The notes under the pieces are model-generated. The model was not told where the DNA came from. It was given only the letters and a program-made list of their open reading frames with translations, and did no database searches. This document shows, in pieces, positions 9,298 to 31,481 of a stretch of DNA of 36,761 nucleotides. The DNA is taken from assembly GCA_016782445.1 (NCBI GenBank), contig JADHYM010000013.1, forward strand, positions 1 to 36,761. The letters run 5' to 3'. Origin of the DNA: Candidatus Omnitrophota bacterium (GTDB lineage: Bacteria; Omnitrophota; Gorgyraeia; JABMRN01; RBG-13-46-9). Each line of letters starts with the position of its first letter. Positions within the stretch are counted from its first letter, which is position 1. Made by a program: the position numbers and the translations under genes.

Positions 9298-9333
9298 ACA
9301 CTAAGGTCCTTCGGCACCTTTGGTGCCTCAGGA

Positions 9334-9390
9334 TCAATTCGCACTTATAACTTATGTCGCATGGCGTGCTCCATAAGTTATGTGCTCATT
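9334..9390 (-). repeat. Dispersed palindromic element, copy 1 (upstream of glpK)
   Basis: ATAACTTATG (9347-9356) pairs with CATAAGTTAT (9372-9381). Reverse complement shares AATGAGCACAT and ATAAGTGCGAATT ends with the element at 31062-31115. Confidence 0.6.
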
Positions 9391-29211: not shown

Positions 29212-31062
29212 ATGAGCAGCAAGTTAAAAAAAGACCTAAAACTTCTCGATGTTTTCTGCATAGCCTCCGGAGCGATGATAAGCTCCGGTTTGTTTATCCT
29301 ACCAGGAGTGGCTTCCGGAAAAGTTGGCCCCGCTTTATTTCTTTCATACATCATAGCAAGTTTTTTTGCTTTGCCGGCTTTATTGAGCAAGGCAGAGCTC
29401 GCTACTGCCATGCCTAAAGCCGGAGGCGATTACTTTTTTATAACAAGAAGCATGGGCGCCGGCGTCGGGACGATCGGTGGGTCTGCGAGCTGGTTTTCTC
29501 TCTCCTTAAAAAGCGCTTTTGCCCTTGTCGGCATGGGCGCGTACGCCGCTCTCGTAATGAATGTTCCAATAAAGGCCATGGCTATAGGCTTTTGTGTTTT
29601 TTTTACGGGTATTAACATATTGGGCGTGCGCGAAGCCGGTAGATTTCAGAGGGTGCTTGTTCTGGGGCTAATTCTGGCGCTTATTCTCTACATAGTTCGC
29701 GGTTTCCCCGCGGTTGACATAAACCGCTTTGTTCCATTTGCTCCTTACGGGGAAGCGTCTATTTTTGCGACCGCGGGATTTATATTTATTTCGTACGGAG
29801 GGCTGACAAAAATAGCGAGCCTCGCCGAAGAGGTAAAGCATCCCGGCAGAAATATTCCCCTGGGCATGATACTTTCTATTATCGCGGTGGGCGTTTTATA
29901 TGCGCTTGTGGTTTTCGTTACCACCGGGCTCGTTGACCCGGGCATGCTTAAAAACTCGCTTACCCCCATATCAGACGGGGCGACCGCGTCCATGGGGAAA
30001 TTTGGGAACATCGTAATGTCAGTAGCGGCGCTTTTGGCTTTCATATCCACGGCGAACGCAGGCATTATGGCGGCATCGCGCTATCCCATAGCCATGTCGC
30101 GCGATAAGATCCTCCCGGATTTCTTCAATAAAATACACGAAAAATTCAAAACGCCGCACATATCTATTATCTTCACCTCTATTTTTATGGTCATTGCCAT
30201 AATTTTTCTGAATCTTGAAATGCTTGTCAAGGTCGCATCGACATTCCTGATCCTTCTTTATGTTTTTGTCAACCTGTCGGTTGTAATAATGCGCGAAAGC
30301 AAAATTCAGAATTACAGGCCGCGCTTCCGTGCACCACTTTACCCGTGGCTGCAGATCGCGGGAGTAATCTCAGGAATATTGTTGCTTTTCACAATGGGCG
30401 TTGAAACCTATGCCATAACGTGCATTTTTATCGCTTGCGGGTTTACCTGGTACATGATATACGTGCGTCCCAAGGTATCGCGCGAGTTCGCGCTAATCCA
30501 CGTTATACAAAGGATAACCGCAAGCGAAATTACGACGCGTTATCTTGAAACCGAGCTTAAAGGAATAATCAGGGAGCGCGATAATATTATCGAGGACAGG
30601 TTCGACCATTTGATAAAGGAATGCACCATACTTGACCTCCAAAAGCATTATACGATGGACGAATTTTTCAGAGAAACCGCGCGCGTTCTGGCTGGTGAGT
30701 TTGCGGCGGAGGAAGACGCGCTATATAATCTTTTAAAGAAAAGAGAAGCGGAATCAAACACTGTGATACGGCCGGGCCTTGCCATACCGCACATCATTGT
30801 TAAGGGTGAGGATAAGTTCAGGATTCTTCTCGCTCGGTGCAAGCATGGCATAACATTTCCGGGAGCGTCGAACGACGTACACATAGTTTTTGTCCTCGCG
30901 GGAACGAGGGACGAGAGAAACTTTCATTTGCGCGCGCTTGCCGCGATAGCTGAGATCGCGCAGGATGAGGATTTCGATAAAAAATGGCTCAACGCTAAAA
31001 ATAAGCACGAGCTTAGAGATATTATTCTTCTCGCAGAACGAAAACGCTGGAAGAAAAAATGA
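29212..31062 (+). CDS. APC-family amino acid permease fused to PTS EIIA type-2 (EIIA-Ntr-like) domain
   Basis: N-terminal SGAMISSGLFILPG, EEVKHPGRNIPLG; C-terminal NTVIRPGLAIPHIIV...VHIVFVLAGTRDERNFHLRALAAIAEI. Confidence 0.88.
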   Translation: MSSKLKKDLKLLDVFCIASGAMISSGLFILPGVASGKVGPALFLSYIIASFFALPALLSKAELATAMPKAGGDYFFITRSMGAGVGTIGGSASWFSLSLKSAFALVGMGAYAALVMNVPIKAMAIGFCVFFTGINILGVREAGRFQRVLVLGLILALILYIVRGFPAVDINRFVPFAPYGEASIFATAGFIFISYGGLTKIASLAEEVKHPGRNIPLGMILSIIAVGVLYALVVFVTTGLVDPGMLKNSLTPISDGATASMGKFGNIVMSVAALLAFISTANAGIMAASRYPIAMSRDKILPDFFNKIHEKFKTPHISIIFTSIFMVIAIIFLNLEMLVKVASTFLILLYVFVNLSVVIMRESKIQNYRPRFRAPLYPWLQIAGVISGILLLFTMGVETYAITCIFIACGFTWYMIYVRPKVSREFALIHVIQRITASEITTRYLETELKGIIRERDNIIEDRFDHLIKECTILDLQKHYTMDEFFRETARVLAGEFAAEEDALYNLLKKREAESNTVIRPGLAIPHIIVKGEDKFRILLARCKHGITFPGASNDVHIVFVLAGTRDERNFHLRALAAIAEIAQDEDFDKKWLNAKNKHELRDIILLAERKRWKKK

Positions 31063-31115
31063 ATGAGCACATGATTTACGCGACCAAAGAAAGCGTAAAT
31101 CATAGGTGCGAATTC
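31062..31115 (+). repeat. Dispersed palindromic element, copy 2
   Basis: GCAC-ATGATTTACGC (31067-31081) pairs with GCGTAAATCAT (31093-31103) and GTGC (31106-31109); ends shared with 9334-9390. Confidence 0.65.
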
Positions 31116-31386
31116 GCCCAGCACTAATTTTATGTATTATGTTTACGTTTTAAAATGTAAGGATAGAGAAGAATTGTACTATGGCTATAGCAGCGATATC
31201 GAGCGAAGGCTTAAAGAACACAATACATCCGGTAATTACGCATTAGTTTATTACGAAGCGTTTAAAAAAGAAAAAGATGTAAGATCTCGAGAGCAAAAAT
31301 TGAAACATTACGGCCAGGCAAGGACGCATCTTAAAAAAAGAATACATGAATCGATTAACGCATAAAATTAGTGCTGGGTCAATTCG
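31109..31386 (+). mobile_element. Putative miniature GIY-YIG mobile unit bounded by 26-bp inverted repeats
   Basis: Left arm 31109-31134 and right arm 31361-31386 are inverse complements at 24/26; ORF start and stop codons lie within the arms. Confidence 0.6.
31132..31365 (+). CDS. Small GIY-YIG endonuclease-domain protein
   Basis: MYYVYVLKCKDREELYYGYSSDIERRLKEHNTSGNYALVYYEAFKKEKDVRSREQKLK. Confidence 0.9.
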   Translation: MYYVYVLKCKDREELYYGYSSDIERRLKEHNTSGNYALVYYEAFKKEKDVRSREQKLKHYGQARTHLKKRIHESINA

Positions 31387-31413
31387 GCCTTGCAGAGAGA
31401 AATTCGAGGTAGA

Positions 31414-31453
31414 TGTAGTTATGAAAAATTTTCTGAAATTTTTCATAACTACA
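31414..31453 (+). other. 18-bp perfect hairpin in leader of RRM protein gene
   Basis: TGTAGTTATGAAAAATTT-tctg-AAATTTTTCATAACTACA. Confidence 0.85.
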
Positions 31454-31481
31454 GGTCTCATTGAAAGGAGGTGATTTAGAA

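Follow-up and report, generated by a model that had tools for sequence, protein, structure and literature searches.

What is the palindrome that precedes a small GIY-YIG gene in the window analyzed here, a stretch of 36,761 nucleotides from a Candidatus Omnitrophota genome: a part of the GIY-YIG element, or its target? Our answer, to which we give a probability of roughly two in three, is that the palindrome (H1) forms the hairpin at the left end of a short, transposable GIY-YIG unit that works as proposed below. The original prediction described two palindrome copies with identical left ends, and we recovered both, at 31062-31114 and 9336-9390, with the same 11-nt left end, AATGAGCACAT. The hairpin at 31062-31114 started with AATGAGCAC (31062-31070) and ended with GTGCGAATT (31106-31114), and its inner arms, ATGATTTACGC and GCGTAAATCAT, formed 11 of 11 pairs; in the minus-strand copy at 9336-9390, the inner arms ATAACTTATG and CATAAGTTAT formed 10 of 10 pairs. 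As had been claimed, the inner stems were unlike in sequence yet perfectly paired. Single-strand folding of both strands of the two copies gave z-scores of -5.5 to -6.3 relative to shuffled sequences (0/200). Since the 9-mer ends alone occurred in the window at chance level, the significance of H1 rests on its paired structure. The copy at 9336-9390 consisted of only a single H1 and a short central stem, and no second H1 was found beside that stem (9305-9335). An inverted hairpin on the far side of the GIY-YIG gene, at 31381-31462, had previously been missed; it was bounded by AATTCGGCC and GGTCTCATT (Table 1).

Table 1. Features of the GIY-YIG unit and the second H1 copy in the window, with related loci in other sequences.
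Feature	Position	Strand	Remarks
Left terminal hairpin H1 of GIY-YIG unit	31062..31114	+	AAT / GA.GA / GCAC stem / variable stem ATGATTTACGC / loop
Left arm of central stem, CCCAGCACTAATTTTATG	31117..31134	+	Ends in the GIY-YIG start codon (last three bases)
GIY-YIG nuclease gene, 77 aa	31132..31365	+	PF01541 E=2.1e-11; active-site Y, YxG, R, E present
Right arm of central stem, CATAAAATTAGTGCTGGG	31361..31378	+	
Right terminal hairpin H1' (long type, ~30 nt extra tail)	31381..31462	-	AATGAGACC-TGTAGTTATGAAAAATTT...GGCCGAATT on minus strand
Shine-Dalgarno GAAAGGAGG of RRM gene (ATG 31482)	31463..31471	+	Directly against right end of unit; insertion place typical of the family
Second H1 copy, gene-less	9336..9390	-	AATGA end against GGAG of glycerol kinase gene
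Central-stem counterpart of second H1 copy, gene-less	9305..9335	-	GATCCT-GA-GGCACC..GGTGCC-GA-AGGACC
Gene-bearing units besides window			L044, L047, L170
Twelve more gene-bearing units (GIY-YIG genes of H1-rich genomes)			L298, L306, L322-L326, L328-L331, L310
Long H1 type, examples	window 31381-31462; L008 1510-1590; L041 247-326; L044 1751-1829		

H1 is composed of AATGA, a variable stem and GAATT. The strict pattern AATGAGCAC-N20..50-GTGCGAATT was present in 16 of 39 related genomes, and because the reversed control pattern had no match in any of the 39, the H1 pattern cannot be ascribed to chance. A scan with a covariance model, the check suggested along with the original prediction, revealed H1 in 79 of 117 genomes from the class to which the window's genome belongs, and the covariation was upheld. 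Counts per genome reached at least 47 and are lower bounds, 47 candidates having been scored per genome; the Omnitrophota genome G151, for which 150 candidates were scored, contained at least 129 copies. The window's own genome (1.0 Mb in 37 contigs, 86% complete) contained at least five copies as well as a longer H1 variant directly 5' of the RNase P RNA (L008). This long type, with ~30 nt of extra tail (..CTYCTTTGAA..) between the inner hairpin and GAATT, was observed mainly on the 3' side of units. The same genome also contained five copies of a further repeat, CCCAGCACTTATTTTGATAAAATAAGTGCTGGG (G000:C11:35, C15:27266, C19:36, C30:5 and C33:32282); the two copies that were compared had long similar flanks and three copies stood at the ends of contigs; a longer repeat is therefore the probable cause of these assembly breaks.

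In an alignment of 39 H1 copies (A1), for which the secondary structure was written by hand, the hairpin was composed, from the outside in, of one flanking pair, AAT/ATT, an unpaired GA opposite GA, and four pairs, followed by a right-side bulge of 1-2 nt, ten pairs and, at the top, often a second GA/GA or GA/AA and then the apical part. We found 97% of the cells paired, with changes on both sides at 12 of 19 pairs; none of 500 shuffles was as good, and slid controls were 20-39% paired. An alignment of 86 copies (A2) was 97.9% paired and revealed compensatory change at 16 of 19 pairs; having been fitted to the covariance model, this alignment leans towards it. Among these 86 copies, the outer GA/GA was kept in 84, and the base just outside AAT/ATT covaried (A-U 33, U-A 33, C-G 11, G-C 2, other 7). 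Both alignments thus supported a family of structured repeats whose ends are conserved and whose stems show true compensatory change, as proposed.

Selection for an RNA helix transcribed from one strand would permit G.U and act against A.C. In the H1 helices, G.T and A.C mismatches were equally frequent (10 versus 9 in A1 and 16 versus 14 in A2), which placed the covariation at the DNA level; the result pointed to a constraint on DNA rather than RNA, and we excluded RNA-level conservation on this strand test. A known RNA family was also excluded, as Rfam gave no relevant match for H1 at E<=1 and no intron match. The strong covariation, and the 25 of 86 copies that lie directly 5' of a Shine-Dalgarno sequence, would be compatible with a functional RNA element, that is, a 5'-UTR or 3'-UTR hairpin acting in translation or mRNA stability under RNA-level selection. 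However, in addition to the balanced mismatches and the lack of an Rfam match, H1 was located beside unrelated genes and was absent at orthologous sites in sister genomes, and we saw neither same-gene orthologous copies across genera nor a G.U excess on the transcribed strand. We consider an RNA element very improbable.

The window unit is 401 bp long (31062-31462) and consists of H1, a central stem with the GIY-YIG gene in its loop, and an inverted H1'. The central stem (CCCAGCACTAATTTTATG/CATAAAATTAGTGCTGGG) has 18 bp, and the same left arm borders the GIY-YIG ORFs in L044, L324, L325, L326 and L328-L330. The order H1, arm, GIY-YIG, arm, inverted H1 was common to the window unit, L044, L047 and L170. 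The weak R1 score of H1' (17.7 bits) was due to its long tail. GIY-YIG was the only ORF found in the interior and the only Pfam assignment there; with the interior filled by this ORF, no DDE, serine or tyrosine transposase was found in the unit. Altogether, 16 GIY-YIG ORFs in seven genomes lay exactly between two facing H1 hairpins, and the 5' and 3' H1 types of the units differed from each other and were conserved in position. The gene was broken in some units (L170, L306 and L329). Most GIY-YIG genes are not of the H1-flanked kind, since ~100 GIY-YIG loci in all were scanned with the H1 model and 16 units resulted; of the H1 copies, too, the majority are gene-less. GIY-YIG units did not consistently abut the palindrome; units outside Omnitrophota lacked H1 (27 of 28 such genomes had none), so H1 is not needed by every GIY-YIG unit.

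The residues Y5, Y16, G18, R26 and E54 were invariant across 12 aligned GIY-YIG proteins. By profile, the nearest solved structures were those of UPF0213 (1zg2/1ywl), followed by SLX1 (7cq2). SLX1 cuts branched DNA as a structure-selective endonuclease (PMC9071465). Slx1 and UPF0213 (YhbQ-type) proteins are cellular proteins, whereas the GIY-YIG protein of the unit, to which they were nearest by profile, is encoded between palindromic ends. An NCBIfam search gave no match, and a single-sequence structure model of the protein was of medium confidence (pLDDT 72). Between close GIY-YIG copies, dN/dS was 0.08-0.29, which indicated that the protein was under selection while the unit spread. GIY-YIG proteins and stem-arm sequences co-varied across phyla (Mantel rho 0.24, 4 of 2000 permutations), partly as a result of the shared descent of whole units.

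Comparison with related genomes revealed sites without the unit. Permease and radical-SAM genes abut in G001, G004 and G007, which belong to the family of the window's genome, and in the window the unit and the RRM gene stand between them. Upon comparison of two species of one genus, G043 and G068, we found that six G043 units had empty sites in G068 with matched joined flanks; the empty sites joined where the H1 hairpins end, and the whole H1-GIY-H1' block was missing in all six. At L306, the empty GCGAAAGGGGGC corresponded to an occupied GCTAAAGG-[unit]-AAGGGGGC with the direct repeat AAGG, and at L323 the empty GAAGAGGAGAAAG corresponded to GAAGAGGAGA-[unit]-AGGAGAAAG with the direct repeat AGGAGA. 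The direct repeat was AGGAG to AAAGGAG at L298 and ~18 nt with two mismatches at L324. Target duplications of varying length were therefore present at three to four of the six sites, L322 and L325 being unclear. Deletion in G068 would not account for the repeats that stand at both ends of the occupied sites. The direct repeat was also longer in the matched than in the re-paired flanks of units (9/2000), and three G040 units whose surroundings were unrelated were 90-95.5% identical along most of the unit. These results established a mobile unit that is ended by palindromes and whose single gene, GIY-YIG, is under purifying selection. Of the two roles originally offered for the palindrome, part of the GIY-YIG element or its target, the first was supported: the 16 flanked ORFs, together with the sister-species empty sites that join at the hairpin ends, identify H1 as the unit terminus.

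The second role corresponds to homing-type insertion of GIY-YIG units into pre-existing palindromes, the H1 pairs being older repeats that serve as the target. GIY-YIG units without H1 do sit near tRNA genes and within rRNA and RNase P RNA. For CPR rRNA, a study from 2024 found most insertions at the top or base of stem-loops and described GIY-YIG insertions that were neither introns nor homing-like (PMC11270868). This alternative appeared improbable to us, as the six sister-species sites lacked the whole H1-GIY-H1' block and not the gene alone, the distinct 5' and 3' H1 types kept their positions, and identity between copies extended over most of the unit. No intron or intein host was found for the GIY-YIG units; there was no Rfam intron match, and six unrelated sites were occupied in one genome. 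Homing endonucleases and the CPR rRNA insertions resemble the unit as small selfish elements encoding a GIY-YIG nuclease, but the unit differs from them in its many unrelated sites per genome, palindromic termini and gene-less satellites.

In 25 of 86 H1 copies, the AATGA end had a Shine-Dalgarno sequence, read outward, no more than 14 nt away, compared with 0-2 in background windows. The GIY-YIG gene of gene-bearing units was co-directional with the next gene, and an ATG was located within 24 nt of the right end in all 16. A simple-ORF count of gene starts near H1 (36/80 versus 24-29 in shifted controls) was too noisy, and the Shine-Dalgarno count was used. Insertion thus favored ribosome-binding sites, and with such a preference an element can move into operons and leave the gene downstream unsilenced.

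Relatives that have no ORF, among them the copy at 9336-9390, far outnumbered the gene-bearing units. A motif, [A/T]YCC, was found within 7 nt past the GAATT end in 75 of 86 copies (background, 1-6 of 86); it is the start of an ACCC-type central stem, and such stems also enclose GIY-YIG genes in other bacteria. Gene-less facing H1 pairs were spaced 27-107 nt apart, and L233 was an exact twin of the window unit without the ORF; its stem was likewise CCCAGCACTAATTTT, and its loop had 21 nt. In G151, H1 pairs with ~880 nt between them could have enclosed a larger, unknown autonomous element, but this was rejected, as the interiors of the three loci had nothing in common. Separately, gene-less CCCAGCAC..GTGCTGGG stems between genes at L006, L236, L238 and L239 looked like intrinsic terminators, and a T run followed the stem at L006, L236 and L238.

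The copy number and facing pairs of H1 are REP-like, and H1 could accordingly be a repeat of the REP/BIME type that a Y1 (HUH) transposase mobilizes in trans, with GIY-YIG as a passenger in the loop of the central hairpin. Y1 genes were indeed present in 32 of 39 relatives, and there are H1-rich genomes without a flanked GIY-YIG gene. However, none of 45 Y1 loci, mainly from the same genomes, was flanked by H1, and only one had any H1, more than 1 kb away, which ruled out Y1/RAYT as the H1-flanked gene. Y1 IS200/IS605 elements are not known to make target duplications, in contrast with the duplications at the insertion points of our units, and the joint travel of GIY-YIG proteins and arms and the purifying selection on the gene also speak against a passenger. 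The Y1 genes had their own, different inverted repeats; at loci such as L077, L088, L092, L094, L098 and L100, these (e.g., GGGGACACAATAC and AAAGGGGTCAGAGTGA) formed a separate REP-like system. We regard mobilization by Y1 as unlikely, although with more in its favor than the other alternatives.

To our knowledge, only Y1 transposases have so far been tied to common REP-like repeats. The likeness of H1 to REP and REPIN-RAYT systems lies in short extragenic palindromes that number from tens to hundreds, the pairing of inverted copies around a spacer, and a rare gene-bearing form bordered by palindromes. The units differ in flanking GIY-YIG and not Y1, in their compensated, freely varying stems and in having some target duplications. 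The foot of the REP hairpin is a GTAG or CGTC tag (PMC3733652), whereas aligned H1 copies have an AATGA/GAATT foot with tandem GA. IS200/IS605 elements are likewise very small, with hairpin ends that contain conserved unpaired bases, but the unit lacks a Y1 HUH transposase, its end hairpins are mutually inverted, and duplications are present at several insertion points. As in MITEs, gene-less derivatives share the ends of the gene-bearing unit and greatly outnumber it, but the gene-bearing partner of H1 contains no known transposase family. Inverted H1 ends and target duplications, with two of six sites unclear, recall a classical DNA transposon, from which the unit differs in lacking a DDE, serine or tyrosine transposase.

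For the reading that we prefer, in which H1 is the terminal hairpin of a transposable GIY-YIG unit, we propose the following mechanism. Extruded or single-stranded H1 hairpins would be the recognition ends, distinguished by the tandem GA/GA mismatch that invariably separates AAT/ATT from the next stem. The GIY-YIG nuclease would cut these branched ends and nick the target in a staggered manner, and the unit, or a gene-less H1-stem-H1' copy in trans, would be joined in; filling of the stagger would leave a short, variable target duplication. The targets would be Shine-Dalgarno/start-codon regions between co-directional genes, and the downstream gene would stay translatable because the Shine-Dalgarno sequence is duplicated or kept at insertion. 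In this proposal, the H1 stems covary because pairing, and not sequence, is read. The recognition, cutting and joining steps, and the nuclease as the enzyme that mobilizes the hairpins, are inferred without biochemistry. Among the GIY-YIG genes found, several H1-rich genomes had none flanked by H1: none was found in G020, G013 or G022, and only a UvrC-size match in G053 and G079. Another enzyme or past activity must therefore be allowed for.

A broader interpretation, which we put forward tentatively and at slightly less than even odds, is that the units represent a class of DNA-only transposon in which a ~77-aa Slx1-like GIY-YIG protein is the sole self-encoded transposition enzyme, with hairpin ends read by shape and tandem-GA mismatch, Shine-Dalgarno targeting, a large gene-less satellite population and, in Patescibacteria and further phyla, related units that lack such ends. 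In the units described here, a very small, different nuclease occupies the position of Y1, with movement evidenced by empty sites and duplications. If the broader interpretation is true, GIY-YIG joins the enzymes able to drive DNA transposition, there is an explanation for a repeat family that two thirds of the genomes sampled from an uncultured class contain, and a reason is suggested why many small GIY-YIG genes of Omnitrophota and Patescibacteria sit in palindromes. Given the placement of GIY-YIG, the empty sites and the duplications, what is able to mobilize a hairpin repeat can now be tested directly. In open-licence literature, which included REP/RAYT papers and a GIY-YIG survey of 2006, we found no published description of an H1-GIY-YIG element, which is not proof of novelty, and no described transposon working with a GIY-YIG enzyme alone.

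Several other GIY-YIG units displayed features of their own. A unit in a Methylobacter MAG (L113, JAQTLI010000288) was nearly identical to Nomurabacteria units, reflecting either recent transfer or a binning error. Judged by eye from their flanks, units with ACCC-type arms seemed to lie inside Patescibacteria 23S rRNA genes (L106 and L109) and RNase P RNA (L127, L129 and L155), where the paired arms could serve as a hairpin extension of the host RNA. The arms at L062 and L067 resembled inverted partial copies of tRNA genes (tRNA-Met-like and tRNA-Glu-like), as though an inverted copy had been made of the flanking target sequence. At L051 and L052, a GIY-YIG gene with ACCCCGTTAGAGATA arms was fused in frame to the N-terminus of a type IV pilin (..LSLTG-FTLVEIM), and the arm encoded the residues preceding the pilin processing site.
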